Assembly: GCF_041146795.1 (NCBI RefSeq)
Contig: NC_135185.1
Location: forward strand, 10,287,529-10,351,528
Source: Maylandia zebra
Taxonomy: Eukaryota; Chordata; Actinopteri; Cichliformes; Cichlidae
DNA: 64,000 nucleotides
Direction of reading: 5' to 3'
Under the pieces are notes generated by a model, which ran no database searches, was not told the DNA's origin, and saw nothing but the letters and a program-made list of their open reading frames with translations. Shown here piece after piece: positions 1,294-64,000 of this stretch; the stretch's first letter is position 1, and each line of letters begins with the position of its first letter. A program made the translations under genes and the position numbers.

Positions 1294-2009
1294 GAAAGTA
1301 ATGTGCAGTAGTTAGTGCTTTTTTAAACCGAGATTCCTGGGCTCATGTTCCTCATGCTCACATGTTTTCTTTTATCCAAAAACAGGTTAGTTTGGCGATC
1401 GTGTAACTTGTCCTTGACCTTTTTACTGGCTCGAGGAGGTGGTTCCTAATGCTGGCTGGTCCAAATATTTAGGATGGGTCAAATGCCGAGTCTCCATATG
1501 GAAACAAAAGGATATTTTCCATGTTATATCTTAAATGTGTATAAATGGGATCTGTTGATGTCCAATAAAAGTAACAAACAATGAATGTAAATCTGTTTTT
1601 TTAAACTTTGTAGACTCGTTTACCCGCTCCAGTGAAAGCAAACAAAACAAAACAACAATGATAGTGGCTTTAAAGAGATTATGAAAAAAATGCAATACAT
1701 TTGTTTTTTGCTACATTAACAGCTCCAAACTTTTCCCGTTTTCCCACTCTGACTTCCTGCAGGACCCACACGGACTTTAATTCAGAGTGAAATCCAGTTC
1801 AGCCACAACATTAACTGTGTTCAACCTTTCATGGTGCTGGAGGGCTTTCAATAAATATAAATAGATGGTTAAGGTGAGAGATTACTATTGTCTTTTACAT
1901 CGGTACAAAGGGAGGACTAAATGCCAAAAGAGAGAGACGTTTTTTAAAAAATGACGCTTTAAAACAGTTCAAGTATCTCTGTGTTTAAGGAGAGAGGGGA
2001 ATAACTGCA
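1294..2009 (+). repeat. Segmental duplication, copy A
   Basis: About 700 bp recur nearly unchanged from 4916. From 5507 the second copy is interrupted by a large transposon, then resumes at 14177. Differences are a few substitutions and single-base indels (for example ACATG versus ACATGG, GTAAC versus GTAGC). It contains TATAAATGGG and AATAAAAG, so an LTR origin was considered, but the edges lack clear TG/CA ends and target duplications. No ORF is conserved. Confidence 0.85.
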
Positions 2010-2766
2010 ATAAGCAACAGCAAAAACACGTAGCCCACCTGAGCTGACCGGGTAGACACAGGGACCATGACAGCTATAGATGAACTTAAGTCTGTTTTGA
2101 GAATATAAGTACTAGAAAGTACAGATATTTGTTTAAAAATGTTGGGATTAAAAGGAAAAAGTTGTCAGAAATACAAACACTCAAGTAAAGTGCAGGAACT
2201 TTACAATTCTACTTAAGTACACTAACAAAGTATCTGTAAAGCCACTGTCATTATCATAATGAAAATAACTCAGCCTTTACCAAGAAACTAGAAGTAATAT
2301 ATTAGAAGGAAAAATAAAAAGTTTCAAAACAGAAACTGCTGGTCAAAAGCCAGAATCAAGAAACTTTTATATATGTAGTTCCAACTGTCCGTGTCCTGCT
2401 GAGCTTAAGATGCTGAAAACTGTTGAACTCAGAGACTCTTCTTCTTTGAGGCAGTTGGCAAACAAAAAATTGCTAAAATCCAACAGAACCACAAAGCAGC
2501 AGGGAGTGCAGATCAAAATGTCAGGTAGCATATTCAGAGCTTTTAAATGAAGAAAACCTTAATTAAAAAAAGATAAAAGTTCAGACAGCTGGGGGTAGAA
2601 CTGCAGACTGCCCAGTAAATCAGCAGCCTCACTTTTACAGTAAGGGGGATAAATGTTGCAGTTCAACAAGTTAAAACTAATCATATAGGTAACTGATGAT
2701 GAACCAGAATCTTGATAATAATTTAGTTACATGAATTCTTGTGAAGAACATTTAAAAGTTCCACAT
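2010..2766. other. No gene seen
   Basis: AT-rich single-copy sequence without a usable ORF or a recognisable repeat end. Confidence 0.5.
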
Positions 2767-3071
2767 TGTAACGGCGGTCTGGCGAGGAAGGAGCGACCAG
2801 TAGGTCCAGAGGGGCACGTGGTGTGAAGGTTAGCCGGACATCTCGGAGGTCAGTCAGTCAAAGTAACAGTCCTTTATTTGGCGTTAACAGAACAAGACCA
2901 TACAAGCCAGGTCTCCGCGGCTCTACCCTGTTCATACATACGTACATGTGCCAGGGTTAAGTAGTCACCGACGCCATTTTACGTTCTCTGTAAACAGATG
3001 CACGGAGAGCAACGTGCTCGCCTGTAATGGCGGCCGCTGCACTCACACTAGTGAACCTTCCAACTATTACA
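2767..3071 (-). mobile_element. LTR-like segment, minus strand
   Basis: Read on the minus strand the segment starts TGTAATAG and ends CGTTACA. It has a polyadenylation signal (AATAAA, the complement of TTTATTT near 2873-2879) about two thirds along. It is GC-richer than its neighbours. No matching 5-bp target duplication was found (cacat versus ataat), so it may be truncated or old. Confidence 0.5.
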
Positions 3072-4395
3072 ATAATAGGACGACACCCCGTAGCAGTATT
3101 ATACCATAATAAGTGTTGTTGCAACATGTAGAACTAAATGTGTAGAAGTTTGAAATATTCAAAAACCAAAGCAACAACAAAGTAATGATTAGAAGTTTAA
3201 CAGAAATGTACCAGCTTTTAACAACCTCACCAGCTATTTGTGTAGAGATTGTTACGTTTACGAGGCGCACCCAAATGCATCACAGTCATTGATTTTTCAC
3301 TGAGTGCAGTGAGTCCGGGTTCATCTGCTGTAGATGTGCAGTTTGTCAGTGAAGATATCACTGTGACCTGACTGGTTACCGCCCTGTCATCGAAACTATG
3401 ATAAGACTCTACATTGTACTCATGCAGCTGGCTGTAAAACCAGGCTTTAAGCATTCAGTGTTTACAGTAGCTGATACTGAAACTCTAATTACTCTTACTG
3501 TTCATCATTAACTGACTGCAACATCTTGGGATGTTTTTTTTACATCTGTTTTCTGCTTTAAAATTTAAAATTACATAACTGATGTCAACAGTTCGTGGGC
3601 ATTATGCACAAACACAGAGGAGTATTTCCCAGCCTGGCAGTTCACAGACTCCAGGACCCTACAAAATTCAAACCTCACAAGTCACTTTGAGTTTTCAAGT
3701 CTCTGCAGAATCCTGCTTGTAGTGCTCTGTGCACGCTTGTCTTTGGAGCAGAGACCATTCTTAGCCACTCACAGCTACGGGACACGTACAGGTATGTGTC
3801 CCTGCTCTTGATTGGTTTAGAGGGTCGTTCTTGTGTTTCTGTGTCATTAATGCAGCAGATTTCATTCTGCTGTCACAGAGAAAGCACGTACACACCACTT
3901 TCAGGACATCTGTGGGTTTGTGGTTGTAATTAAGCTACGAATACAGAATTTCTACACACACACACACACACACACCTGGTAAGACGTGGTAAGATTTTGA
4001 GTTTTTGCAGTGTGGGGCTGGAAAAAATAATTCTCTTCATATTTGTTACGGTTTGTACGCGGTTCAGAGTTTGTAAGTGTTTTGGAGTTTTGTACGTGCT
4101 TTGTCTCTAGGGGCCACCATGGTTTGTTGGGTCTAAAACGTAAACCCCGCTGACTCAGAGACAGATCCGTGTGAACAAAGCAAGACCACACAGCGCTCTT
4201 TGTCTTTTTACTTGCAGCAGAGATGTCCGGTCAGGGTCTCAGAGTTGAAAGCTCTTCACCTGATCTCAGCCAACTTCCAACCTGACTTGTTGCCTCTTTT
4301 ATTGACAACAGCAGTTATAAAAACATCTCGTTAGTTATGTGACAGTTAAGGCGCGCGTACGTGAGCAAGTGAGTGTGTGTGTGTGACGTTTGCTA
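3072..4395. other. Intergenic, with CA repeat
   Basis: No recognisable gene. It holds a short (CA)n microsatellite at 3953-3975 and a (GT)n stretch near 4374-4385. Two 20-bp near-copies of TCACACCACATATGGCGTGA follow at 4396-4415 and 4436-4455; each is itself an imperfect palindrome. Confidence 0.5.
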
Positions 4396-4481
4396 TCACA
4401 CCACATATGGCGTGACCTCTGAACGACATCTCCAGTCACACCACATATGGCGTGAGCTTTCAATGAACCAACAAAGCAGAA

Positions 4482-4937
4482 GTGAGCGGTATAGCTGAAC
4501 TTATAAAAACAGGAACTTGTGGTTTCTTATGTGCAATGGAAAATTACAGCAAAGAGACCAGCCCCCACATCTTATGCATGCAAGAGAAGCTAAAACCTAA
4601 TATGGAAAAAACATTTTATCAGCACACATGTAAGCAATGGTTCTGTGACTTTCCCATCAATCTTTATGGTTTGATGGGAAATTGGTTAAATGATTGTTTA
4701 GCTCATGTCTGGATGACAGCAGATAATTCTGATGAAAAGGAAACTAAACCCGTAACTAACTGTAAGCACGTTGCAGCTGAGTCGAGGGCTAATAAAGATA
4801 AGACCATGTGGTGTCCAGCAGGACTACGCGTGCCACGGACAGTCCATTTGGGACATCTGAAAGACTCATTGTGTAACTCAGGGTGTAAGCAGCAACTCCT
4901 ATATTGTAGACATAAGAAAGTAATGTGCAGTAGTTAG
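4482..4937 (+). CDS. Cysteine-rich ORF, unknown
   Basis: An open frame of 151 codons with about 15 cysteines spread along its length and no recognised domain. It has no hydrophobic signal peptide or membrane segment that I can see. Its last 20 or so bases run into the second copy of the 0.7-kb duplication (from 4916), so the present C-terminus belongs to repeat sequence. Neither upstream splice sites nor a promoter could be defined. It could be an internal exon of a decayed gene, part of a retroelement ORF, or chance. I do not recognise it and assign no function. Confidence 0.2.
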   Translation: MSGIAELIKTGTCGFLCAMENYSKETSPHILCMQEKLKPNMEKTFYQHTCKQWFCDFPINLYGLMGNWLNDCLAHVWMTADNSDEKETKPVTNCKHVAAESRANKDKTMWCPAGLRVPRTVHLGHLKDSLCNSGCKQQLLYCRHKKVMCSS

Positions 4938-5506
4938 TGCTTTTTTAAACCGAGATTCCTGGGCTCATGTTCCTCATGCTCACATGGTTTTCTTTTATCC
5001 AAAAACAGGTTAGTTTGGCGATCGTGTAGCTTGTCCTTGACCTTTTTACTGGCTCGAGGAGGTGGTTCCTAATGCTGGCTGGTCCAAATATTTAGGATGG
5101 GTCAAATGCCGAGTCTCCATATGGAAACAAAAGGATATTTTCCATGTTATATCTTAAATGTGTATAAATGGGATCTGTTGATGTCCAATAAAAGTAACAA
5201 ACAATGAATGTAAATCTGTTTTTTTAAACTTTGTAGACTCGTTTACCCGCTCCAGTGAAAGCAAACAAAACAAAACAACAATGATAGTGGCTTTAAAGAG
5301 ATTATGAAAAAAATGCAATACATTTGTTTTTTGCTACATTAACAGCTCCAAACTTTTCCCGTTTTCCCACTCTGACTTCCTGCAGGACCCACACGGACTT
5401 TAATTCAGAGTGAAATCCAGTTCAGCCACAACATTAACTGTGTTCAACCTTTCATGGTGCTGGAGGCCTTTTAATAAATATAAATAGGTGGTTAAGGTGA
5501 GAGATT
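4916..5506 (+). repeat. Segmental duplication, copy B (left part)
   Basis: Matches 1294-1884 with only scattered differences. It ends in GAGATT immediately before the CAGGG terminus of the inserted element. Confidence 0.85.
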
Positions 5507-7223: not shown

Positions 7224-8028
7224 CTGGAAGTTAAACTTCATAGTTACACCTGGTAAAGCAGCAATGCTGATCGTTTTATTAAAGATGAAAGAATTTAGAC
7301 AGTTTTTAACTCTCAGTGATGCTGCAGTGTTCGTTTGACCTGAAGCGTACGGAGTTTAGGACCCAGATTACTCCCAGATTTAAGAGCATCTTAGTCCGAC
7401 AAATACAGCGCTTGCATGTTCTGAAAAAAAATGTGCTTTGTCGTGTATCTGAAGGACAAACACCAAACCAGTTCCACATCACTGAAGTTGCACCATTTTT
7501 ACAAACCAATTCTGGTTCATCTGTTTCACTCAACAATCGGCCATGTGAACGGTATAATATGGCCCAGCCCTACTTGTGCATATGTTTTAAAAATGTACAA
7601 GTTGTATTTGCATTTCAAGTTATGAAAATGATTCGTTAAACATGATTATGGTTTTTACAGTCAAAAATATCACTTTCTACTCGTATTTTAAATTATGTCT
7701 GAATTTAGTTAAATTGTGCTGAAATAAAGGTGAAAGGTAAAGGTAAAGGTGAAATATAGAGGCGAAATCAAAAGTAGTCAAAAACGGCCAGTTATACCCT
7801 GAACACCAGAGGGTTAAAAGGCTAAAAGCAAAGTTGTCACCAAGTACTGTTTATATTTGTGTGTATTGCTGCAGCTTTTTTGAGTATTAACTTGGTGCCT
7901 TTGGGTGAAATAATGGTAATATGAGTGATCCATATGGTCACAAAGAATAGCCACTTGTTTCTGTGCTACCAAAGTTCCCTGGCTTTCATTCAAAATGTGT
8001 TTATGGTCAGCACCGACACACTAAACTA

Positions 8029-9379
8029 CACTCAACAAAAATATAAACGCAACACCTTTGTTACTGCTCCCATTCCCCATGGGATGGACGTAGAGACCTA
8101 AAATTCATTCCAGATACACAATATAACCATCCCTCCCAAACAGTGGTCACAAATCAGTCCAAATGTGTGGTAGTGGGCACATCTGCCATATTGAGATAAT
8201 CCATCCCACCTCACAGGTGTGCCACATCAGGATGCTGATCTGACATCATGAGTAGTGCACAGGTGTACCTCAGACTGCCCACAACAAAAGGCCACCCTGG
8301 AATGTGCAGTTTTTTGCGCTATTGGGGGTCTGGGGACCCAGAACCGGTCAGTATCTGGTGTGACCACCATTTGCCTCATGCAGTGCAACACATCGTCGCA
8401 TGGAGTCTATCAGATTGTCAATTGTGGCCTGTGGAATGTTGGTCCACTCCACTTCAATGGCTGTGTGAGGTTGTTGGATATTCGTGGGAACTGGTACACA
8501 CTGTCGTATACGCCGGTCAAGCACATCCCGAACATGCTCAATGGGTGACATGTCCGGTGAGTATGCTGGCCATGCAAGAACTGGGACATTCTCAGCTGCC
8601 ATCTGCCCTGAACAATGTGAACCATGATTCATCCGTGAAGCGCACACCTCTCCAACGTGCCAGACGCCATCGAATGTGAGCATTTGCCCACACAAGTCTG
8701 TTACGGCGACGAGCTGGAGTCAGGTCAAGACCCCGATGAGGACGACGGGCATGCAGTTGAGCGTCCCTGAGACGGTTTCTGAGTTTGTGCAGAAATTGTT
8801 TGGTTGTGCAAACCAATTGTTCCAGCAGCTGTCTGGGTGGCTGGTCTCAGACGATCTTGGAGGTGAACCTGCTGGATGTGGAGGTCCTGGGCTGGTGTGG
8901 TTACACGAGGTCTGCGGTTGTGAGGCCGGTTGGATGTGCTGCCATATTCTCTGAAACGCCTGTGGAGACGGCTTATGGTTGAGAAATGAACATTCAATGC
9001 ACGGGCGACAGATCTGGTTGACATTCCTGCTGTCAGCATGCCAGTTGCACGCTCCCTCATTGCTTGTGGCATCTGTGGCATTTTGCTGTGAGACAAAACT
9101 GCACATTCCAGGGTGGCCTTTTGTTGTGGGCAGTCTGAGGTACACCTGTGCACTACTCATGATGTCAGATCAGCATCCTGATGTGGCACACCTGTGAGGT
9201 GGGATGGATTATCTCAATATGGCAGATGTGCCCACTACCACACATTTGGACTGATTTGTGACCACTGTTTGGGAGGGATGGTTATATTGTGTATCTGGAA
9301 TGAATTTTAGGTCTCTACGTCCATCCCATGGGGAATGGGAGCAGTAACAAAGGTGTTGCGTTTATATTTTTGTTGAGTG
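8029..9379 (-). mobile_element. Tc1-like element, copy 1
   Basis: TA duplications (8027-8028 and 9380-9381) flank ends CACTCAACAAAAATATAAAC in inverted orientation. The terminal inverted repeats are long, about 285 bp. Length is 1351 bp. The interior encodes a broken Tc1/mariner transposase on the minus strand. It is the same family as 43934-45286 and sits inside the CAGGGTTCGTA element. Confidence 0.93.
8348..9081 (-). pseudogene. Tc1-like transposase, broken
   Basis: Cut-and-paste transposase relic. The start MPQMPQAMRERATGML leads into a paired-type helix-turn-helix (STRSVARALNVHFSTISRLH) and the second DNA-binding region (RNRLRDAQLHARRPHRG). The first catalytic Asp is kept in FTDESWFT and the last catalytic pair in SPDMSPIEHV. 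Two lesions are seen. A 2-bp deletion near 8781 (CTGAGTTT where copy 2 has CTGACAGTTT) shifts frame before the second DNA-binding part. An internal deletion after FRADGS removes the region that should hold the second Asp and shifts frame again. Family proteins are about 340 aa, so roughly 100 residues are missing. It cannot be active. Confidence 0.85.
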
Positions 9380-9555
9380 TACTTAAACATTATAAATGGC
9401 TTCAAGCTCACACTGAGGCCTGTGGGGCACAATCAGCCACTGAGACAGTACACACATTTTTGTGTATTTGTATATGAATATTTCATACTTGAAGGCTGCC
9501 TGTTTATTTAAGGGAGATGAACAAAATACATTGGAATTGTACATAATAATATCAC

Positions 9556-43768: not shown

Positions 43769-43933
43769 GTAAGAAAAAAATTAATTTGTGTATACACTTT
43801 AGGGAAAATAATAATTTTAACAAAATGCTGCTTGTCACTCTATGCCAGGAGTATGTTGAAAATCACCTGGGATTTTCACAATTTATCATGGGTGCGTTTT
43901 TTTTTTTTTCTTCTTTTACCTGCATTAGAACTA

Positions 43934-45286
43934 CACTCAACAAAAATATAAACGCAACACCTTTGTTACTGCTCCCATTCCCCATGGGATGGACGTAGAG
44001 ACCTAAAATTCATTCCAGATACACAATATAACCATCCCTCCCAAACAGTGGTCACAAATCAGTCCAAATGTGTGGTAGTGGGCACATCTGCTATATTGAG
44101 ATAATCCATCCCACCTCACAGGTGTGCCACATCAGGATGCTGATCTGACATCATGAGTAGTGCACAGGTGTACCTCAGACTGCCCACAACAAAAGGCCAC
44201 CCTGGAATGTGCAGTTTTGTCTCACAGCAAAATGCCACAGATGCCACAAGCAATGAAGGAGCGTGCAACTGGCATGCTGACAGCAGGAATGTCAACCAGA
44301 TCTGTCGCCCGTGCATTGAATGTTCATTTCTCAACCATAAGCCGTCTCCACAGGCGTTTCAGAGAATATGGCAGCACATCCAACCGGCCTCACAACCGCA
44401 GACCTCGTGTAACCACACCAGCCCAGGACCTCCACATCCAGCAGGTTCACCTCCAAGATCGTCTGAGACCAGCCACCCAGACAGCTGCTGGAACAATTGG
44501 TTTGCACAACCAAACAATTTCTGCACAAACTGTCAGAAACCGTCTCAGGGACGCTCAACTGCATGCCCGTCGTCCTCATCGGGGTCTTGACCTGACTCCA
44601 GCTCGTCGCCGTAACAGACTTGTGTGGGCAAATGCTCACATTCGATGGCGTCTGGCACGTTGGAGAGGTGTGCGCTTCACGGATGAATCATGGTTCACAT
44701 TGTTCAGGGCAGATGGCAGCTGAGAATGTCCCAGTTCTTGCATGGCCAGCATGCTCACCGGACATGTCACCCATTCAGCATGTTCGGGATGTGCTTGACC
44801 GGCGTATACGACAGCGTGTACCAGTTCCCACGAATATCCAACAACCTCGCACAGCCATTGAAGTGGAGTGGACCAACATTCCACAGGCCACAATTGACAA
44901 TCTGATAGACTCCATGCGACGATGTGTTGCACTGCATGAGGCAAATGGTGGTCACACCAGATACTGACCGGTTCTGGGTCCCCAGACCCCCAATAGCGCA
45001 AAAAACTGCACATTCCAGGGTGGCCTTTTGTTGTGGGCAGTCTGAGGTACACCTGTGCACTACTCATGATGTCAGATCAGCATCCTGATGTGGCACACCT
45101 GTGAGGTGGGATGGATTATCTCAATATGGCAGATGTGCCCACTACCACACATTTGGACTGATTTGTGACCACTGTTTGGGAGGGATGGTTATATTGTGTA
45201 TCTGGAATGAATTTTAGGTCTCTACATCCATCCCATGGGGAATGGGAGCAGTAACAAAGGTGTTGCGTTTATATTTTTGTTGAGTG
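43934..45286 (+). mobile_element. Tc1-like element, copy 2
   Basis: TA at 43932-43933 and 45287-45288, the same CACTCAACAAAAATATAAAC ends and long inverted repeats as copy 1, 1353 bp. Sequence is nearly identical to copy 1 apart from a 2-bp indel and scattered substitutions. Confidence 0.94.
44232..44967 (+). pseudogene. Tc1-like transposase, internally deleted
   Basis: The first part (44232-44723) is open: helix-turn-helix, second DNA-binding region RNRLRDAQLHARRPHRG, then FTDESWFT with the first catalytic Asp, ending at a stop straight after FRADGS. The rest continues in another frame (to 44967) with SPDMSPIQHV. Here the final catalytic Glu seen in copy 1 (SPIEH) is Gln. The segment with the second Asp is deleted at exactly the same place as in copy 1. 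Confidence 0.87.
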
Positions 45287-45447
45287 TATTAAACATTATT
45301 GTGCAGCACGTAAGATCGACAGCGCACAGTGTGCTTTGAGGTAGGTGCCAAAAAGGGTGTAGTTTGTGTGTGTGTGTGAGCACCCGTGTGTACACCTGTG
45401 AGCGCGTTTGTTTTTAAAAGGTTCCTTCATGTAATGATCTGCTAGAG

Positions 45448-50583: not shown

Positions 50584-51907
50584 GAAGATGATAACAGTGC
50601 AGGGCCGTGCAGAAAGGTTTAAAGGGGCGGGTGCTCAAAGTTAAAAAGGGGCACATTGAACCAGGCTGAATAACAACAACACACATTCATCAAGAATCTA
50701 ATATGGGATCGCATCATACTATATCACTGTTCTGAGGTGGCGACAAGGCAAAGCAAACGTAGCCGATGTTTTACCTGATGGGTACAATGTTGCTGTGGAT
50801 AGTGCAGCACTGTGCTGATCTGAGACTGTAGACATTAAAAAGTCCATAGGAGAGATGGTAGCTGATTAAACAAGTATCATGAGATAATAACAAAATGCAA
50901 AGATTGGTGACAGCGCTTGGAACCATAAGGCAATAAAAAACTGTGAGAAATAATTTAGGCTCTGCCTGTGAATCACTCTTTGCTTCTCTTCTTCCTTCCA
51001 TCCCATCATTTCATATATCTCTCTCCACTTGCTGTCTATCTGAGAACAAGGCACAACTTGTTATTGCAATAAACTATAATCTAGTTATCCACACCTAACA
51101 ACTCTTGCACTTAATCTATAATAAAATGATGACAGAAAAATGTTATAGCGCTGCCTTTAGTAGCCTCACACAGCTCCTGTTTCCTCCTCATGTCCTTACC
51201 AGCCATGTCTGCACAATGTTATATCATGAGTAATAATTTTAAAAAATCCATATACATAAAACACACACATGCACGCACACACAGTAACATTTTAGACCTT
51301 CTTCAGAATACTGTATATACTATGGGCATCACGGTGCTGATCCAGAATCCTTACATTATTATTTATTACTAGAGCTACAATAATAAAGCAAAGAGGAGGG
51401 GGAAGTAATAAATATGAAATAATGTCATTATGATGATTCCATTTGTTTCACTATCCACTCTGTGCAGGGGGAAGCTTTTTACATTTTTAAACAGATACAA
51501 TAATTTTACTGCTGTAAAATCCAAATTTTGTCTTATTTAAAATATAAATCTAATATAATCTGCTTCTTAATGTATGTTCTTTAAAATACAGCGTGTTTTT
51601 TAAAATATTATAATAATGCATGATTATGTGGACATGCATATTAGATCGTTTTTTAGTGAAATATAATCCCTCCAGAAAGGCAGGAAAAGCCCTGTAACTT
51701 ACTTTAAAACTAAATATGTTCTAAATACTTTAAAACTAAATATGTTCCCTAAAACGGTGACAGAGCTACAGACCCATGACAGCCTTACACAGGTAGCCAG
51801 CAGCTATGACCAGCACTACCTGTGCAGTTAATAACAGGTCAGGTAATGTTTGTCGCGCTGTTGCACACACAGCACGCTCATTTCTTTCAGTTCGTCAGTT
51901 GCAACAA
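50584..51907. other. Intergenic; possible hAT end
   Basis: CAGGGCCGTGCAGAAAGG near 50601 followed by GGGGCGGGTGCTCAAAG resembles a DNA-transposon terminus and the loop of the inverted repeat at 52301-52354. Otherwise AT-rich without genes. Confidence 0.35.
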
Positions 51908-52753
51908 GTGTACGTAATAAGCCAATACTCCTGTGTGCTATACACTACAGTGTACGCTGTACACCTACTTACTGGTTTTGTCGCATCAGTCTGTGTCTCT
52001 GAGTTAATTTGTGTTTCTCCTACAGCTCCGGACTGCAAAAAATGAGCGTGCTCTTTGTGAGCTCGTTCCCGGCTCGTAACCAGCGCGTTCTGCCGTCAAG
52101 GGGGATCATTGGTTAAATGTGATCATGTGACTGATGCAAGCTAGATCCTTTTATTTAGCAAAACTGTGATTAATAGTATATATTATTGTTGAGGGGCACA
52201 GACAGGACTCCGCACCCACACACATAAAAAAAATTAATAAATTTTTTTTTTTTTAAAGTTGCCTCAACAAAAGGGCACTTTGGGCTAACATCAGGAAAGG
52301 CAGGGATGTGCAGAGGGGGGGGGGGGGGGGGCTAGAGGGGCTTGAGCACCCGCCCCTTTCCTGATGAGTGCCCAAAGTGCCCTTTTGTTGAGGCAACTTT
52401 TAAATTTTTTTTATTTATTTATTAATTTTTTTATGTGTGTGTGCGTGCGGAGTCCGTTCTGTGCCCCTCAACAATAATATTTAACTATTAATCATAGTTT
52501 TGCTAAATAAAAGGATCTGGCTTGCATCAGTCACATGATCACATTTAACCAATGATCGCCCTCGACGGCAGAACGCGCTGGTTACGAGCCGGGAACGAGC
52601 TCACAAAGAGCACGCGCATTTTTTGCGGTCCGGAGCTGTAGGAGAAACACAAGTTAACTCAGAGACACAGACTGATGCGACAAACCCAGTAAGTAGCTGT
52701 ACAGCGCACACTGTAGTGTATAGCACACAGGAGTATTGGCTTATTACGTACAC
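51908..52753. repeat. Large inverted repeat, ~395-bp arms
   Basis: 51908-52300 is the near inverse of 52355-52753 (for example GTGTACGTAATAAGCCAATA versus its complement at the far end). The 54-bp spacer contains a run of 17 G (52315-52331). The arms differ by scattered changes and small indels. It probably arose from two head-to-head copies of one transposon end (CAGGGATGTGCAGAGG at 52301). Confidence 0.9.
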
Positions 52754-52829
52754 GTTGGTAAGCTGTCTTGTATGGCAAGCCATTAGTGCCAAAATTCGCC
52801 ACTTTCCTAACCCGTTTGGTTAAGAAATG

Positions 52830-53085
52830 GCGTAAAAAACGCCGTTTAATTATTCAAAACGCCGAAAAAAGCGGCGTTCTGTTCCGACAAACGCCGCTTT
52901 TTCCGCCGCTCGGATGGCGCCCTGAACGCACCATCCGAGTGACGTAAAAAGCGGCGTTCAAAGACAGACGGAAACGCCGTTTTTTACGTTACTCGGCACA
53001 AAACGCCGTTTTTATGCATCTTTGAACGGCGTTTTTTACGGCGTTCTCTGCCAGCTGTAACGGCGTTTAAAACGGCGTTTTATTG
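52830..53085. repeat. AACGCCGTT/AACGGCGTT-rich patch
   Basis: Eleven AACGCC or GGCGTT cores occur in about 245 bp, many as AAACGCCGTTT or TAAAACGGCGTTTT, in both orientations and irregularly spaced, and with CpG in every unit. No ORF or tandem period is visible. Confidence 0.85.
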
Positions 53086-53519
53086 AAATTATGCAGGGCA
53101 CTCCCCATGGTTCCCTCATCCAATTACTTTCAACTCATTTCACCCAATCAAAGAAGAGGAAGTGCAGACCACACTAATGCATCACCGATTCACCTTGCTG
53201 CTAAGTGATTGCCTATTCAGTACCAGTGCTTGTCACAGTATTCACTTGTATTATAATCCCACTATGCATTTTGATGTGTTTAAGGCATGATCGAGCAAAC
53301 AAACGACAGAATACTTTTTCTGAAACCTTAACTGTGTTACCTGTTATGGCAGCTAACAGGTAATGAGCAGAGCTAGCTCTGCTCATTTCTGAGCTTCTTT
53401 CTTATTTTCCTCTTTACTTCTCTTAACCTTTAACTTATGTTTTAGCAATCAGATCCTGCCATCTTGCATTACCGCTTCGTGCTAGTTATGTTGACTTTTC
53501 TCTTCTTTTGTCTCCACTT
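53086..53519. other. No gene seen
   Basis: Unrecognised sequence between the CpG-rich patch and the LINE relic. Confidence 0.4.
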
Positions 53520-54300
53520 TTTTCACCCGTGTTTGGACACTCGGCGCATGGCTCCTTTGTTTACATTAGGGATCAGCTGTTAGCGCTGCGCCCTGCAGCT
53601 GCGCTACCGGCAAACAGACCCTACATCCCCAGTGAGGGAAGAAACGGGGGTGATGTCTCCCGAGGACACCTCACACACCATCTCTCCTTCCTGTAATCAC
53701 TTTAAATGTGAGATCGCTCCCTGATATGATTGAGGAGCTAATGACGCTAACCCGGTCACAGTGGCAGTATCCCGGCACTGCCCGGTACTCCCTCTGTGAG
53801 TAGGCTGCCCGGCTTCCAGCTGCTGCGGGCGGACAAGACGAGAGACAGCGGTGAGAGGAAAGGAGGGGGGCTGGCAGTGTTTGTTAAAGACGGTTGTGGT
53901 ATCTCTGGGCACATCGCTGTGAAAGAACAACTCTGCAACACAGACATTGCGCTATTAGCGGTTAGCATCCGTGGAGGTAGCCTGTGACTCTCTGTGGTCC
54001 GCAGACTGCAAACGCAATCTCCGAGAGCTCTTCTTCTAATATCAGGGGACTTTAATCATGTCTCGCTGGACTCCACACTGCCCACCTTCACCCAGTATGT
54101 GACCTGCCCCCACCGTAGGCAATAAAACATTGTACTTAATGTATGCCAATGAAAAAGTGGCATACAGTTCATCACCTCCCCCTGCCCAGGGAAGATCCGA
54201 TCGTAACCGAGTGCGTCTTGTCCCTGTGTGTGCAGCCCTTACTGTGCAGGGAGCCACTAATCGCCCACGCAGTGCAGAGATGGTCCGCGGAGGGCATATA
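53520..54300 (+). pseudogene. LINE endonuclease relic, plus strand
   Basis: Frames read HGSFVYIRDQLLALRPAAAL, then FQLLRADKTRDSGERKGGGL with AVFVKDGCGISGHIAVKEQL, then LLISGDFNHVSLDSTLPTFT and QYVTCP. The GDFNH motif is the APE endonuclease core of fish non-LTR elements. Frameshifts, stops and a deletion separate the pieces. Same family as 14850-15430. Confidence 0.8.
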
Positions 54301-54809
54301 AATAAATAATAAAAGCAAGTAAATGACAGTATGCTCTTTCTGAAACAAACGGAGACCTTAACTTTTATCAAAATACCGTTTTACTCAGTTTAAAGTAATA
54401 CCACTGTATAATAGCCTTCAAATTTAATAATGTTAACAGTATCTCATGAATATTTTTGCCCTTTCAACATGCATTAAAAAAATAGATATACAGTTTTGAA
54501 TCAGACCTGTATGTACGTTTTCTCAAAATTGACGTAAATAAGTAATCTCAAGAACCTGAAATAATAGTTTCCCACGTAAACTGGAGATGTCCTTGTCAAT
54601 GTCATCAGAGTACTGTGGATGTCTTACACGAATTTGAAACATAAAACCAGAGTGGCACATGACAGTGTTGCACATAACATAACTAGTTTATATGACATGA
54701 AGTTATAAAAAAAAAAAAGAATCCATGTAACTTGGTAATGGCTTCTTTCTGATAACTGTCGGCTGCAGTGTGCATTATCTTGACAAAAGTATAAGATACT
54801 GAACCCACT
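54301..54809. other. No gene seen
   Basis: AT-rich filler between two LINE relics; may be the decayed middle of one element. Confidence 0.35.
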
Positions 54810-55090
54810 GATATGATGTGGTGGAGGAGCACAAATACCTGGACACCCACATATATACATTTGCTGAACTGGAAGATCAAAACAGAAGCTGTACACAAGC
54901 AGTGTATGGGCAGGCTATTTTTTGTGAGCAAGCTTGTGCAGCGCACTTTGATGTGTTCTTCTTGGATCAGGAGAGCAAGCTCTGTGATTGGCTGCACTTC
55001 GGAAGCTGTGGTGGAGAGGAAGTGAGTGAACAAACTGCCATGCATCATGGATATTCCTCTCAATCCACCTCACCAGGTACTTCTCTAAAA
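54810..55090 (+). pseudogene. LINE ORF2 C-terminal relic
   Basis: VEEHKYLDTHIYTFAELEDQ matches the 'VEE.KYLG..I...L.W..N' signature after RT in the same LINE class. It is followed by degraded text. Same strand as 53520-54300, so possibly one element with the RT deleted. Confidence 0.5.
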
Positions 55091-55559
55091 GTGTGACTCA
55101 GGTCTGTTGCCCCAAAGGATACAGGAAATGTTAGATATTTTAGTATTTTGGGAGCATGTACTGAATACCTTTTTTGATGATATTATACAAAGGACCCTGT
55201 TTGTGCAATGCCCTTTGTTTGAACTTCATCTCCTCTTGCTGCGACCCCACGGGCAACTTCCTTTGGCCTGCTGGTCTGGAAAATCCAACAGTTCATCTAT
55301 ATGTAAAGAAGGCACTTAAACTGGAACAGGCATAGCTGCGTTGATCCTGCTGTGGTATAGTGGGACAGTGCATTCCTCGAGTGCACATCAAGTTTGCAGC
55401 CTGCTAAAGATCACACACCATTGATTATGTGCCTTTAGGTATATATGGTTAAACATTTCCTAATGCAAATAACTACATGCAGTATTCTACCATGTGCAAA
55501 CTTATATCACTAAAGGATTCTAACTGTCTAGTGTTTAATGGACCTGTCAAAAGTATGTT
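55091..55559. other. No gene seen
   Basis: No recognisable feature. Confidence 0.4.
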
Positions 55560-55770
55560 GAGATTATAGAAGGCCCCTTTCAGAGCTAGGGGGAACTTCC
55601 TTATATGGTTGTAACTTGTAACTTGAAACTTGTTGACACACTTTTACCCTTCTGCCTATAAAAACCCTGCACAGAAGAATAAACTTTGAGTTGATTTTGG
55701 GAAAGCAACCTGAAGCAGTCTCTGTATCATTTTGTTCTCCCAGGCTACTCCCGGCGCTGTAACTAACCCG
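55560..55770 (+). mobile_element. LTR-like promoter/poly(A) segment
   Basis: TATAAAAACCCTGCACAG followed 15 bases later by AATAAACTTTGAGTTG, then a CTCCCGGCGCTGTAAC end, is the order expected of a retroviral LTR (TATA, R, poly(A), U5). Ends and duplications not established. Confidence 0.4.
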
Positions 55771-55904
55771 CTGAACGGCATACCTGAGCTTACTTTGAAT
55801 AATTAATCTTATACAAAACTCTGCTTATCGCTGCCCATGTCTCGAAGGAAACTCGATCCACGGATGACCCGGAAGGAGAGATTTCTTTCAGGAAATGCAT
55901 TGAT

Positions 55905-56280
55905 TTCCATGACAGAATTCACAACAACACAGACACAGGTCGGTTCTTTGAAACGGGCGTTTATTACTTGGGCCTTCTCTCCTTGGCTTCACCATCACCA
56001 GTACGCCGATACACCATGAGAACTGGTCACAAGCGAACAGTACAAATCAATTAGCAACTTTAGAGTACACATATTAAGTCCAAACACAAATAACAACATT
56101 TCTCAAATGACAAATACCTCGTTGGCTGCTTGTCCTGAAAAGAGGTCCTTAAGTCCTTGTGTTGCTTTTTCTTTTAGTAAACTTTTAACTTAAAATCGCT
56201 TCATGAGAGACATCTGCTCCCTCGCAGTCCATGCAAAGTCTCGTGTACTCTCGTTAAGGGTATTCTCACGAGACACTAGC
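55905..56280 (-). mobile_element. LTR-like fragment, minus strand
   Basis: The minus strand shows AAGTAATAAACGCCCG then ACCTGTGTCTGTGTTGTTGT, resembling R-U5. It lies directly downstream of the integrase gene and could instead be that gene's 3' end. Weak. Confidence 0.25.
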
Positions 56281-56530
56281 TCTTACACTTTACACATGTA
56301 CATTTCAAATAAAGACATTTCAACACAAACTATATATATATTCATGATATTATGTAACTTATTACAAATCAGTCATCTACATCATGAAATCCACACAGAA
56401 CATTTTAACAGCATTTACACCACTACTCAATGGTACATAGTAAACACGTATCATAACTTTTCACATTATATGTATCCAGTCACCTAGATATTTTGAAGTC
56501 TTTCCACTTGCTGCTATTATGTTTCAGTCA

Positions 56531-58808
56531 TTAATTGAACTGTCTCAGTGATATGTGGAGTCCAGAAAGTAGGCCAGTGATGAGCTCAATACCATGACTC
56601 CCTCTGGTGCCACTTAGTGGATTAAACAGTTCTACCACTTGCTCCATCACCATTCCGTCCAGAGTAAATTCAATGTCTGGCACAGTAATCCTCTCAGGCC
56701 AGTCGACCAGCAATCCCAGCTCATCTGTACCATGAGCAGCAGCACCACCACCAGAATCTGCACCTGAGCCCTGAGCAGCAGTCGTCTCACTCTCAGTGGC
56801 TGTCACACCACCATCAGCTGTCCCACCAATAGTCCCATCAGCAGCAGCTGCTCTGGTCTGAAAGATGTCCTGCATGGCAGTTGAGGCTCGGCCCTGTTGC
56901 TGGAGGCTGCCTCGGACAAAAATCTGTAATGGGCTCAAGTGTCTCTCTGTCCGCAAGCCATGATTGTTCCACTGTTGAGTGAAGTCTTTCAAATCTCTGT
57001 TGATCCTTGGGAGATAGATGTAATGGAGAGCCCAAAGGTGCATTTCATTGTCAATGTCAATGATGCCTTCCTCCTCCAGGTGGTGAAATAAATCACAGTA
57101 CACATTGGTCATTCCTCGCCACAGATCACCCCAGAGCCTCTCAATTCTCTGATTATGGGTACTCCTTCCTCTTAGGGCACTTCCACGATCAAAGCCTCTG
57201 AAAATGTTCATCATCAGGCAGACAGCATTGTTTTCCCCTCCTCTGTCTGTCCGGACCCTCGAGGGTACACCATAGGATACCACGGCTCTGATGAAACTTG
57301 ATAAAACAGTACTGCTACGGTTGTTGTTTGAGGCATGAAGGAAGACCACAAGACGACTGTATCCATCAATAGCCCCATGAATGACTATCCTCCACCTAAA
57401 ACAGTGGTCCATAAGAAGAAAAATCTTATTTCTGCTTTGTTATTGAAACAATGGAAACACACACTCTTAATTGATTTACATGGCACTATTGCATGTCAAG
57501 TTTGTCTGTACGTTGCTTGCGATGTCTGTGTTCTCTCATTTTCCCCTTTAAACATAACCAGTTGTGTTAGAGGACTGCCCATCACAGGGCCTGGCTCTAT
57601 TGGATGTGTCTTACTGTTCAACAGTTATATTTGATGTAATGCTGAATTTCACTTTGGTCAAAATAGGTGTTCAACAAATCAGTGTGCTTGGTTACCTTAT
57701 CAGCTTGTGATTTCCATCAATGTGCCACAATGAGTTTGGACCTGCAACCTGATATGTTCTTCGTTCTGGTCTCCGCAAAACTGCTCTTATGGCAGCTGCT
57801 CCAGGATTTATCCGTAGCATGCTTGCTCGAACCCTCCTTCGCTGTACACGTAGTCCACGTACTCGCAGGGAGGCTCTGACAGCCTCAGGACCAATTTGTT
57901 CATTGCCAGCGACAATGTCCTGCACATGTTCATCCAGCGCACTGTCAGTCAGTTCCGCATACATTGATGCACGGGTGAAATTATACTGTCTGAAATCAGA
58001 CAAAAAGAACACGAGTATTTTATCACTGCCATAACAACACACATCATTACTTGACTAGTTAGTGCACATTCAAATATACTAATTTTTACAATTTCACAAT
58101 ACCATTTAATTTGAATAAACAGTGGGTGTGTGTCACAAAAGAACTGAAAGTCACACTGGTTTCAAAAGTCACTGACCGCAGACATCTTCGAATTGTACGA
58201 AGTGAAACATTCAAAATATCAGCCATCTGAGGTGCAGTGAATCCACATGACTTCAGGAATGAAAGCTGTTCCCGAGTGATAAGGTAAAGGGATCTGCCTC
58301 TACCTCTGTTGAAAACCACTGGTGCCTGGTATCCAAAAGAGCCTGAAAATATATAAGCGTTTGGTGTATTTGGAAAATAGGTTAAGACAGAGTCATAATT
58401 TATTTCACACTTTTGATCAGTCAAGGAATCGACACAATATGTGCTTACCTTGTTGGCCATGCTGAGTAGACAGTTCGACCTCCTGAATCAATTCAGCCAA
58501 GTCACGCAGAAGTTGATCTGCTGCAGTTACACTGATCAGTCTTCCTCTTGCCCACCGAAGGCTTCTCTGCATTGTCTCCAACCTCAAAGACATCAAAAAA
58601 TTACTTCTTAATTCATGTTATATTTTCAGGCCATATTCCCCTTAAACATTTTATGCAAGTTAAAATGTTAAATGTTTTCCATCATGCTTTCATCATACCT
58701 CCTTAACGCTAACTGTAGCACATCTGGTCCAACATCGTCCATCAGCAGCCGCCGTGTACAGTCATTATGAATGTTCTTGCACCTTGAGATGAAAATCCTC
58801 CAGGCCAT
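56531..58808 (-). CDS. Spliced DDE integrase/transposase, 522 aa
   Basis: Five coding exons (minus): 58808-58699, 58582-58449, 58342-58177, 57989-57696, 57395-56531. All junctions are GT-AG with matching phases (2, 1, 2, 2) and no stop. The N-terminus is helical. A helix-turn-helix lies at about 107-137 (QLSFLKSCGFTAPQMADILN...). The integrase core (rve) has D228 (WHIDGNHKLI), D285 (VRTDRGGENN) and E320 (NQRIERLWGD), i.e. D-x56-D-x34-E, all catalytic residues kept. The C-terminal 160 residues are Ala/Gly/Thr-rich then acidic-hydrophobic. It should cut and join DNA ends in the nucleus. Neighbour: a divergent gene from 60362. It may be the transposase of a mobile element or a domesticated copy; no terminal repeats were identified. 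Confidence 0.9.
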
Positions 58809-60082
58809 ACTTTGTACTGTGATTCTACAAAGACAAAAATTTAAATTATTGCTTTCAACAGGTTTATATATTTAAATAAATCAAAAAATTTCATGTTAGT
58901 CTTCTGAAAATTGTGACTGAGCACTTTTGGAAACACTATGTCATCACTAAGTATTGGGACTGTGAACAGTTACAGAATGCATCTGAAATAAATGTCACAT
59001 TCTAACAGGTTATAGTTCTGTTAATAGAGCTTTTGAATCTACGTTTCATACATATTCCTATCTTTAATAGCAGTATGTCAACGATGTCAACCAATATTTT
59101 CATATTTCAAACACACACCCAAGTTAAAAATTTGAATCTCCGCATCTTCTACTCAGCAGATCTGAAAAATCATTTTTGATAATGTTCCGATTCCATTGTC
59201 AAATGTTCCCATCCATGTTATTCATCTTTGTTTATTTTAAATGCTGTCATTAGTTTTTTTTTTCCAACTAATTACCAAAATGAACATGGTCTACATTGTT
59301 TTGCTCACTTAAATAAAACGACATTTTTGTATTGTACCCTGGGTTCATGAAGACCATGCTGTCTTTTAACTTTATTATTTCTTTTCTGCATATACTGACT
59401 GTTCTTTATTCATTTCTCTACTTTCTCCTCTCTTCTTCTTCAGTCAAGTTTAACGGCAGCTTGCATCCACTTTCTCCTCTCAATTCCGCTGAGATTAATT
59501 CCCGCTCTACTGTACAAGACTTGTGAATGGTTACCTGGAGGGATGTACCACTGTGAGAGGGGTGATACGGAACAGTCCAGGTGATCGCTGCTTTAATTTA
59601 CCGGTCAGATATACCTAAATTGCACGTCGACATAGCTAGTGAACTGTAACTAGACCATAAATCAGTGATAACAAAAGAACATTCAATCTACTTTCTCCGG
59701 TACTTTATAGAAAAAAATCAACATCAATTCAATGTCGTCTTGCTATCTGGGATGGCAGTGCAGTAACGTGTAGCCTAATCCGGCTAATGTAACAAGTGAT
59801 ATAAAACCGTATTTTAAATAATATAAAGTGGCTAAACGGAGTACCATATTAAAGACCTTATTAACATGCCTCACCTAAAATGGCATGTTGGCAACATTCC
59901 TAACGGACAAAGGTTAGCATGACTTGTCTGTGAAGGTTCTCAGCATGACTTTTTTTTCGCTTACTACAATACAAAGCTAACATATAACATGTGCTTAAAA
60001 GGACAAAGCAATGTTTTTGAATCATCGCTTAGCTTTTAGTTAGCAAAGACGAACAATAATTGAGATTAACTAGGGTACTTAC
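58809..60082. other. First intron of integrase gene
   Basis: AT-rich, no ORF of interest. An acceptor (TTTGTAG, about 58817-58823 on the minus strand) precedes the ATG exon. The donor at 60082 belongs to the putative leader exon. Confidence 0.5.
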
Positions 60083-60210
60083 GGTGTTTTTTGTTGGCGC
60101 AGAGATTTCGCATGCATTCATCTGTATGTAGTTTGTCGCACATAGCTTGATTGAGACAACACAAATATGAGGTTGACTGTGATTGGTTAACACAAATTCT
60201 GATCACAGGT
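60083..60210 (-). other. Putative 5' non-coding exon of integrase gene
   Basis: Minus strand ...AACAAAAAACACC|GTAAGTACCC: a consensus donor at 60082. It contains no ATG-led frame joining the coding exons. The upstream limit is a guess. Confidence 0.45.
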
Positions 60211-60361
60211 TGTGGTAAGGGGTGGATTAAAAAAAAAACACAACCTTCAGTCTTGCTGATCCAATCACAAACAATGTACCTTCTCCCGCCGTACTTTGAA
60301 TTTTAGGGATGCTATATATATATATCTGCCCAGCCTTTTGGCGGACTTTTTGGGAACAGTC
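60211..60361. promoter_or_regulatory. Bidirectional promoter region
   Basis: About 280 bp separate the leader-exon donor of the integrase gene from the ATG of the plus-strand gene. A TATA-like CTATATATATATATC lies at 60312-60326, 36 bp before the plus ATG, and an ATTGGAT/CCAAT-type motif at 60257-60265. Shared regulation is inferred from head-to-head layout. Confidence 0.5.
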
Positions 60362-63300
60362 ATGTCCGAACGGAGCGCTGCATTTCGACGGAGAGTCACT
60401 GATATCAGAGACAGAATGAATGCCCAATTTAACCGGCTACTGAATCAAGATGACAGTGAAGAGGGGACATCTCTTCTACAAAGGTGAAATGCTTTGGTGG
60501 TGGTTACTCTATTGGCAAGCTTTTAGCTTTGCGCCTTTTTTGTTTTTGCAAAAGGAAATAACTTTTACATTTTTAAATAATAAATGGCTCGTTTACTAAT
60601 TATCTGTTACAATTCAACAACAAATTCTGTAATCATAAATGTCTATCCTAGATTGACGACTTCAAATGACAGTCATTTTAATCCCTGTTATGTGCATTTA
60701 TGCATAAAGATTTTAGTTTATAAATGTAGCATATCCCATATTTTCAGGGAGCATTTAATTTGCGAGACAATAGAAAAATGCATGCAATAAACACCGATTG
60801 AACACTCATTCCTTACTCTGAGTGTGTTGGGTGGTTTTTTTTTCTTTTCTTTTTTTTCTTGGGGGGGGTGTCTCTGTGTGATTAGTTTCACTAAAATTAT
60901 CTCATGGTCTAATGATAGCTTTGGAGTTTTCCGCCAACAGCACGGAGGTGGGCCAGTGCGCAGACCAAGAGGCGGGAGAACCAGACATCGCCAGTTAACG
61001 TTTAAGGTGTCAGTACTAAGGAATCCCACACTGACACACTACCGATCTCATAGGGGTAATCAATATTTATATTAATATTAATTATTTGGAGTGATGGGTT
61101 TGAAAAATGAGAATTACATCATGGTGTCAGTTGTTTACAAATTGTAGAATTTGGCATTAGATTTTTAGCACCTTTGTAATCTTTATTTCCTTGCACCAAT
61201 AAGTTGATGTTGAGACACTACAATGTGACAATTTACCCTTTTCCGTTTTTAGGGAAAGCTAATTTGGTTTAAATTTGATTACAGATGCCACTCCTGCTAC
61301 TCGGGTGGTCGTTCCTGTAAACCTAAATGCAGCTGAATTCAGGCAGGCACTACGGGACAATATTGCAGACATACCCTTGCAGTTCGATCTATGCAAAGTG
61401 AATGGACAGCGGCTCATTCTTCCTCTTGAAGAGGAGACGCCCCAAGAAATTAGAGCAAGAAACCTACTGGGTCGCTCCAATCTTTATATCCGTCCAAAGG
61501 TATTCAAATGTTCCACTCGGGTGGCTGATATGGCATAATTGTCACTATTACTGTAACTCAGTGGCACTCCAGTCACCCTAGTATTGTATAAGACATCTTT
61601 AACATGTTACTGCTCAGAATAATAAATGCTGTGATTTTCCCCAAAGGATTTGAGACATTCATCTGATCACTATGCCAGATGGCTATGCTTAAATAATGCC
61701 CCGCCAATTGATTCACTGTTAATAACAGAAATGCAGTAGAGCAAGCTTCAACTGTGGTCTAACAGTATTTTAGGGTTAGGGTCATTTTATTCTTGTAATC
61801 TTAGTTTCCTGGGTTCTGGCTTTTTCATTGTCTTTTGTTAATGTCCTTAACCTTTCCTTTATTTATTTATTTATTTTTTTCCCCCTCAGTTATCCTAAGT
61901 TCTACCTACCCAAAGTGTCACGGTCCTGAGTCTGTGGACTCGGTGTTTTTCTGTTTGTATTAGTTAGCTTTGATTTCATGATGTGTTTTGATTCTCTTGG
62001 GTTTGATTTCTGTCGCTAGTATTCCTAACTTCCTAGGTCCTGGGCATTTCTTGTGTTCTCCTTCTTAGGTCGTGGTTCTGTGTTCTGTTAGTATACAGTC
62101 GTCTCTGTCAGTGTGTCTCTTGTTCTGTCACCGTATCCCCTAGGTTAGTCCACGTCTGTTCAGTTTCCTGTTTTACTTTGAAAGTCTGTGTACTATGTCA
62201 ATGTGTTGAGTTTTGCCTCGTCATGTCTGATGAGTCCCAGCTGTGCTCTCCTCCTGTTTCACATTCCCTAATCACCTCAGTATGTATTTAAGCCTTGTGT
62301 GTTTCCCTGCCAGTTGGCGCGTTGTCCTCTGTTCTTGTTTGTCATTTGTTGTTCCATTTCTTTTATATTTTAATAATCTGGTGTTTTAGATTACAGAGGC
62401 CAATGAGGACTCAACTGGTGGAGAAGTTGTGCAGTCTGAGATGGCAATGTAAGTCTTTGACAACTGCCTTTGGACTGTAGCACTGTAAATGCATTACACC
62501 CTCTCATCAACAATATTTACCATATTGCAGTGTGCTGCATGACACCGAGACACCTGACCATAGCAGGCACAATGTACAGGAGCCAGAGGTTATCAGGTAA
62601 ATGGCACTCTGTTTGTTTATGAGTTGGAATTTTAATCTTAAACTATTGCACAATTTCATTTATTTTTTTGGTAAAAACTAGTTTGGTACAAACTAATTAT
62701 ATCATTATTATAACTTGGATCATTTTGTGTAGTCTAGATCAATAAATATCTGCATTGGGGTCCTCTTCCTGCTATGAAATATTTCTGCTATTCCTTTGCA
62801 GTGGTCTGCATGAAAACCATACAGCTCATTCTAGTAGGCATGGTCTCCAGGAACCAGAGGTTAACAGGCAAGTGGTAGTTGTTGAATAACATGCCAAAAC
62901 TTAAGTGTAAACTGGAACTTATAAAGCACACACTATAGGTAAATAGACACTCAATAAGTACAATATACGGGGTGAGACCAGCGAATATTAAAATTTGAAA
63001 GGTTGCATGTATTGAACTGATAACATTTATGTGCTCTGAATATAGACCAATGGTTTAATTGCCTCATTCGGTTTCTGTTTTGCTTTTTCATGTTTTTCAG
63101 ATTTGTTGATGTCATGATATAGGTATTTTTAATTGCTGAAAATGCATCGATAACACTTTAGTCAGCCTGACCATTCAGACACTTGGAACTACAAATCACC
63201 CAAACTATTCCCAGTAAATGGGCAGTTCCTTATGTTTCACAAAAAAAGGAAAAGAAGACACTGCTGGCCTGTGATAATCTTTTGTGCGCAGGAAAACTGC

Positions 63301-64000
63301 ACTGTCAAAACTTGAAAGTTGCATTTTATAGTTTATTGATCCATTTTGGCAACCAATAACAAGATCCATTTTTGTTCCTTCATGCTGCTTGTCTCTCAAA
63401 TTAAAAAACAAACAAACAAAACAAAAGGCCCATCTCAGTGCATGCTGGTCTTATACCAGTCTCTTAAGTTATCAAAAATAGCCCTGAAATTCTTCCTGGC
63501 TGACTTGATAAGATAAACAACAAAACAATGAAGTGAGCATTAACCTACAAATAAAAAAATGATTAACCCAGAAATAGAAGTAAACTAACAACAAACTTTA
63601 TATTTTAATATTTTGAAATTTGTTTAAATCCAAATGGCTCCAACAGATGCAATCAAGGACCAAATAATGTGAAATCAGATTCTTTTATCAGATGAGTCAT
63701 TCCATTTCAGTATGTATACATGATATTAAAAAAATCAAATGCATTTGTTCTGTTTAGGGAAGAGTTTTACATCGACTCTGCAGAGTCAGAAGTATCAGAC
63801 CTGGATGAGGCTGTCCTGGCTTCCCCTGAACAAAATGACTCGCATGTATGTCTCATGAACAACACTGCCAGAACTGCTGTGTATGTGTTTCATGTAGTCA
63901 TGACCCTTCTCTCTCTCCCCCCTTCCCCCCCCCCCCCCCCCCCTTCTTCAGGACGAGATGGACCTTGCGACTGTGATGAAAGATTTCCAGGAAACGCATC
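60362..64000 (+). CDS. Multi-exon gene, G2E3/HECT-like N-terminus (partial)
   Basis: Eight exons fit in one frame: 60362-60483, 60919-61055, 61285-61499, 62390-62448, 62531-62596, 62802-62867, 63758-63845 and 63952 onward (open at the edge). Phases match at every junction. Sites are GT-AG except a GC donor (GCAAGT) after exon 6. The product starts MSERSAAFRRRVTDIRDRMN, followed by an Arg/Gly-rich stretch and LTFKVSVLRNPTLTHY. A conserved block follows (FDLCKVNGQRLILPLEEETP ... NLLGRSNLYIRPK) and then acidic Ser/Glu-rich exons. The central block resembles the N-terminal part of fish proteins annotated as G2/M-phase E3 ubiquitin ligase-like, whose HECT domain lies C-terminal; that part would be outside the window. 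Function therefore unproven. Exons 5 and 6 are tandem duplicates. Confidence 0.75.
61916..62335 (+). mobile_element. LTR fragment in intron 3
   Basis: TGTCACGGTCCTGAGTCTGT... matches the start of the LTR at 23334-23908 and keeps GTTTCCTGTTTTA and CCCAGCTGTG stretches in order. The 3' part is lost before exon 4 (62390). Confidence 0.7.
62531..62867 (+). repeat. Tandemly duplicated exons 5 and 6
   Basis: 62531-62596 and 62802-62867 are both 66 bp, both phase 2-2, and code VLHDTETPDHSRHNVQEPEV and GLHENHTAHSSRHGLQEPEV. Confidence 0.85.

Follow-up and report, generated by a model that had tools for sequence, protein, structure and literature searches.

A 64,000-nucleotide stretch of the Maylandia zebra genome (hereafter the window; contig NC_135185.1, positions 10,287,529 to 10,351,528, or C19:10287529-10351528 in the searched genome of 962 Mb) carries part of a large mobile element in which an integrase gene and a gene for a HECT E3 ubiquitin ligase lie head to head. 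It is best read as a two-gene DNA transposon (integrase and HECT ligase) belonging to the IS3EU superfamily, a reading to which we give a probability of about 85%. Dispersed, near-identical copies carry the DDE integrase and HECT genes in divergent order between long inverted repeats ending TATGGC..GCCATA. An earlier note, made from the letters of the window, had described two divergent multi-exon open genes at 56531-64000 as a possible mobile unit. Both genes are present as described, and the pair belongs to a transposon that exceeds this unit, running from 52771 to 69979 or 69995. The coordinates of the features are collected in Table 1.

Comparison of copies revealed that similarity extends past the noted unit as far as 52771, where the terminal sequence TATGGCAAGCC is located; its inverse marks the right end, at which the last 16 bp are duplicated (69979 versus 69995). 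The window copy measures about 17.2 kb in total, and the end search places its ends at contig C19 positions 10340299 and 10357507. The arms 52771-54405 and 68374-69979 are inverse to each other and 97.7% identical over 1,635 columns, with 9 mismatches in 1,606 aligned bases. Searching inside the window alone found no terminal repeat, the right end of the element being past the window boundary. In the whole genome, a 127-base end query gave 41 matches, which were paired into elements by place and orientation. This yielded large elements of 17.2 kb (C22, C19, C4 and C1), 16.4 kb (C33), 18.0 kb (C6) and 12.3 kb (C3, partly deleted). Nine shorter derivatives measure between 2.0 and 8.6 kb, and eight ends stayed unpaired. 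TATGGC stands at both ends of the window copy, of six further large elements and of eight shorter ones, the exception being one C3 end that reads TGTGGC. Within the inverted repeats (53607-53918 and 68861-69162) there is an apparent remnant of what we take to be a long interspersed nuclear element (LINE). The tail of the HECT model P0001 from Sarotherodon galilaeus matches terminal-repeat DNA and reaches into this LINE-like stretch.

Table 1. Features of the window copy and of the family, in window coordinates unless a contig is named.
Feature	Position	Strand	Basis or remark
Transposon, window copy	52771..64000, on to 69979 (or 69995) past the right end of the window	.	Ends TATGGCAAGCC at 52771 and its inverse at 69979/69995
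Left terminal inverted repeat, 1.6 kb	52771..54405	+	Partner 68374-69979 beyond the window (locus L025)
IS3EU-type integrase/transposase (candidate), 522 amino acids	56531..58808	-	Exons 58808-58699, 58582-58449, 58342-58177, 57989-57696, 57395-56531
Upstream region common to both genes, 1,553 bp	58809..60361	.	Both promoters presumably lie here
HECT E3 ubiquitin ligase gene, 633 amino acids as modelled	60362..64000, last exons to 66812 beyond the window	+	Spliced frame; homologues P0001, P0003, P0004
Conserved N-terminal domain of the HECT protein, about 70 amino acids, no named family	61285..61499	+	Aligned with seven homologue pieces
Insertions in the CACACCGAACGC...TTCGGAAGCAGATTTGCGTCGC repeat	C1, C6, C4, window right end (69996 onward, L025), C19:9.28 Mb, C4:14.58 Mb, C13:31.5 Mb		

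The minus-strand gene has 522 codons in five exons with GT-AG introns, and its spliced frame contains no internal stop. Its product matches the Pfam family PF24764 (rva_4) at E=4e-93; the helix-turn-helix attributed to it produced Pfam matches under the models' cut-offs. Four relatives (P0005, P0006, P0008 and P0011) match the NCBIfam models IS481 (E 3e-12 to 6e-17) and IS3 (E 5e-10 to 2e-11), all under the model cut-offs. Ginger1 and retroviral integrases differ in carrying an HHCC zinc finger before the core, and no such domain is among the seven Pfam families that match the window integrase at E up to 1. The start methionine is common to the homologues P0005-P0007, P0008 being 27 residues longer. 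Across 33 aligned integrases, two of the DDE positions never vary and the third is conserved in 90% or more; these conserved residues are presumably the catalytic ones. Relative to the window copy, the integrase exons of C1, C6 and C33 are free of stops and gaps, those of C22 and C4 have one 2-base gap each, and C3 has one stop. Larger gaps or missing exons occur in C16, C14, C21 and C6:29.4 Mb, with stops as well in C21. At the C-terminus, roughly ten residues of the window integrase differ from the other copies; of those copies, nine of ten have five extra bases there (sequence inspected for three). In clusters at 90% identity, the integrase P0005 has 42 members and the HECT protein P0003 has 48.

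A link of the plus-strand gene to HECT ligases had been suggested only tentatively, and extension to the right supplied the domain itself. The gene starts and encodes its N-terminus in the window, and the HECT domain and the stop codon (about 66812) lie in the adjoining DNA of L025. The modelled protein matches PF00632 (HECT) at E=2.2e-9, with 37.9 bits against a cut-off of 23.9; this is its sole Pfam family, and none is found in the window part. Exons between 62397 and 62871 are uncertain. The homologue P0001 aligns at 87% over 94% of the window part, and the HECT domain is present in P0001, P0003 and P0004, P0002 scoring under the cut-off. All 25 aligned relatives retain the HECT cysteine, with variation at the two preceding residues in a few; the window copy reads YTSTCSLSL. 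This cysteine aligns with that of the HTC motif of AREL1, which we take to be the catalytic one. Together, the conserved DDE residues and the invariant cysteine support the prediction that both products are working enzymes. For the conserved N-terminal domain, profile searches gave no Pfam family over the cut-off among the members listed, and no protein of solved structure was significantly related to it (best E=0.4). Between the two start codons lie 1,553 bp, and the distance of about 280 bp given earlier can be measured only to an unproven 5' exon. In the Astatotilapia calliptera model P0002, HECT exon 2 is joined by splicing to DNA resembling 59453-59578, which lies between the two genes.

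Recurrence of the divergent pair, which the earlier note had left as a condition for a mobile system, was found at 11 of 14 family integrase loci, where the HECT gene lies on the opposite strand and is divergent in each. Ten of these pairings fall within 16 kb; C16, just over at 16.07 kb, was added despite that limit, since its HECT N-terminal exons lie nearer. Some of the eleven loci are deletion derivatives, such as C9 and C6:29.4 Mb, which keep only part of the HECT gene. Seven pair-holding elements, on seven contigs, could be read at both ends, and each has both genes inside one terminal-repeat pair. In a tally over the whole genome, 24 integrase-HECT pairings within 16 kb were observed against 0.17 expected by chance. 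The first tally entered 133 integrase rows from 155 matches (not quite all listed) and 39 HECT rows, exon rows of one locus being collapsed. The second entered 101 of 141 HECT rows, omitting 40 on contig C6 (11.9-13.1 and 15.2 Mb), none of them closer than 8 kb to an entered integrase row. Those 40 HECT exon matches form an array at C6:11.9-13.1 Mb (one more at 15.2 Mb), in both orientations and with no listed integrase match nearby. A separate derivative at C21:9666724-9675315 has an exact 6-bp duplication and HECT matches, with no listed integrase match.

The shared terminal repeats and target duplications that the note had anticipated are likewise in evidence, the former as the inverted repeats described above. 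Exact 6-bp target duplications flank seven of the 15 family elements read at both ends, that is, one of seven large elements (C33) and six of eight shorter ones. For C1 and C22 a duplication fits once a single-base gain or loss is permitted (4/6 and 3/6 ungapped), and a shorter element at C19:9.28 Mb occupies the same site as C1 with an exact duplication. The shorter elements at C4:0.88 Mb and C13 have no target duplication, and the left end of that at C21:5.97 Mb is unreadable. The family displays a marked insertion preference for the CACACCGAACGC...TTCGGAAGCAGATTTGCGTCGC repeat. By eye, seven of the 15 elements are inserted in this one short repeat, two of them at the identical base, after GATTTG. 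The 23-base core of the repeat occurs 194 times in the 962 Mb with at most one mismatch, and a reversed control occurs 0 times.

By its termini, target duplication and transposase type, the element can be assigned to the IS3EU superfamily. IS3EU elements are described as having TA..TA termini and, usually, 6-bp duplications (PMC10045372). The present element has in common with those of PMC10045372 and PMC12730594 a DDE transposase that resembles IS3/IS481 and lacks an HHCC zinc finger, as well as TA..TA termini, the 6-bp duplication and terminal inverted repeats; a HECT E3 ligase gene, a length of 17 kb and inverted repeats of 1.6 kb set it apart from the IS3EU elements described there. The TET+ IS3EU elements of fungi, which end in TAYGG..CCRTA, also combine a transposase with a second enzyme gene in opposite orientation; that enzyme is an alpha-kinase, with a TET/JBP dioxygenase gene between the two, whereas here it is a HECT ligase (PMC12730594). 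GingerRoot elements resemble the present one in their 6-bp duplications and mostly TA..TA termini and are grouped with IS3EU, and related animal elements are supposed to exist (PMC10045372).

The suggestion of an undescribed mobile system with a ubiquitin ligase is supported, with limits to its novelty: the superfamily is known, as are fungal relatives carrying a kinase (PMC12730594), and a HECT gene on such an integrase element is new as far as the literature search reaches. That search, in open-access literature (Repbase and Dfam being outside its scope), returned no paper naming both IS3EU and HECT and no paper on a HECT-carrying transposon by title or start of abstract. The word HECT was not found in the accessible main text of PMC10045372 and PMC12730594, nor in the accessible part of PMC9587614. 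Fish proteins named G2E3-like ("G2/M phase-specific E3 ubiquitin-protein ligase-like") have the HECT domain in common with the transposon protein. Several of them share about 45-56% identity with the cichlid protein P0003, others 22-35%, and P0004, from Maylandia zebra, bears the name. The N-terminus of G2E3 is a zinc-binding PHD/RING-like region. Pfam found no zinc-binding N-terminus in the transposon protein, and the name G2E3-like is an annotation, not shown orthology. We know of no HECT gene in GingerRoot elements.

HECT is a recurrent neighbour of these integrases, and the two-gene make-up is wider than the window family. Among more distant integrases of the same genome (38-52% identical), a HECT match lies nearby at 28 loci (5 weak) and is convergent in each; therefore, the two-gene make-up extends beyond the family, with the gene order between the ends swapped. 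In the tallies, these outside-family integrases account for 14 rows with HECT in the first and 10 in the second, or 24 of 119, two of which share one HECT match; at five of six further loci of the 119, weak HECT matches (E 4e-5 to 1e-6) lie downstream and convergent. The head-to-head order is thus the layout of the window family, and the other pairings in the genome are tail-to-tail. Two elements of a second lineage, about 10 kb long, were read at both ends and carry TATGAGGGGCCGTACAAGCCAAAATT... and its inverse, ending TATGAGG..CCTCATA. Around one of them the hexamer CGTATA, in TA-rich DNA, is exactly duplicated, and in the other a duplication fits with one base lost. TATG and GCCAAAATTC are common to the ends of both lineages, at equal distance from the end.

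The association probably extends to the loach Triplophysa tibetana, in which the gene models P0133, P0140 and P0157 combine rva_4 and HECT. These models serve here as evidence of linkage alone, and inspection by eye shows that P0157 lacks the segments of the core that would contain its first D and its E. Scans of viral contigs with the integrase and with the alignment confirmed no relative. A scan of genome contigs found rva_4 integrases on three short contigs (L001-L003) from a metagenome-assembled genome labelled as a Cycloclasticus symbiont of a sponge. These contigs are possibly sponge host DNA, and no HECT match is present in their 3.4-4.2 kb.

Several results weigh against reading the element as a two-gene IS3EU transposon. 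Target duplication is absent at the window copy itself (two of six bases agree) and likewise at C6 (1/6), C4 (3/6) and C3 (4/6); the flanks of such copies may have been rearranged after insertion. No HECT partner was found at three of the 14 family loci (C14, C21:5.87 Mb and C15:33.99 Mb); in searches of limited sensitivity, none was found for 90 of the 119 outside-family integrase rows either, and 16 of the 39 HECT entries, C16 among them, were without an integrase within 16 kb. The HECT frame was assembled for the window copy only. Within the family, the pairwise ratio of nonsynonymous to synonymous substitution rates (dN/dS) of the integrase spans 0.21 to 2.48 on few changes, values that do not fall clearly under 1; insertions relative to the window copy and stop codons were excluded from the calculation. 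That a transposase copy landed by chance beside a host HECT gene has nothing in its favour outside the window and next to no probability, given the excess of pairings over expectation and the seven elements on seven contigs that enclose both genes; the explanation was rejected since the pair recurs inside shared termini. Host-gene synteny was rejected too, as was same-strand fusion as a rule. It is improbable as well that HECT is a captured host gene carried as a functionless passenger. Transposons often capture pieces of host genes, and many genomic HECT matches lie away from these integrases, which would suit a passenger; the full open frame with its catalytic cysteine argues against it, as do HECT matches beside integrases only 38-52% identical and a cysteine invariant in 25 aligned relatives. 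The presence of the ligase in several lineages would be best explained by its helping the transposon.

Under the two-gene transposon reading, the integrase would bind the ends through its helix-turn-helix, cut, and insert with a 6-bp stagger. Shorter derivatives were presumably moved in trans by complete elements, because they carry the same ends and exact duplications of their own. The HECT protein, expressed from the shared central region, would be an active ubiquitin ligase that operates in trans. Its substrate may, as a first choice, be a host protein that restrains the element, such as a silencing, repair or cell-cycle factor; the second choice is the integrase itself, whose level would thereby be controlled. 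An action on the integrase in place of a host factor, either as self-restraint or in handing over the product complex, is possible, if somewhat unlikely; the two genes belong to one element and share a central region, and would probably be co-expressed. A further extension of the two-gene reading is put forward very tentatively, by analogy, and is rather unlikely to hold in full: the ligase would be an old, selected component of animal IS3EU elements that serves counter-defence by having host restraint factors degraded, in the manner of viruses, and the change between tail-to-tail and head-to-head gene order, inside ends with a common motif, would be the trace of a circular form of the element, of the kind that bacterial IS3 elements produce.

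Other repeats surround the element. An 846-bp palindrome (51908-52753, arms 88% identical) adjoins its left end, and repeats at 50600-51788 and 70054-71125 lie in inverted order on either side. Elsewhere in the window, a 1.36-kb element bounded by 290-bp inverted repeats is present twice, at 8027-9384 and 43929-45288, with 99% identity between the copies. The stretch 1294-5506 has 590-bp direct repeats (99%) about 3 kb apart, as in a long terminal repeat retrotransposon, and 3307-5022 recurs inverted at 71270-72929.

The finding bears first on annotation, in that some fish HECT genes annotated as G2E3-like are transposon genes and are not to be counted as expansion of a host gene family. Accessory genes of DNA transposons also show the dealings of mobile DNA with its host, one example being the TET/JBP dioxygenase of some fungal IS3EU elements. 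Since both frames are open in the window copy and the integrase exons of three further copies are free of stops and gaps, the system could be assayed. A transposon-borne E3 ligase, if true, would offer a direct handle on the vertebrate proteins that control transposition.

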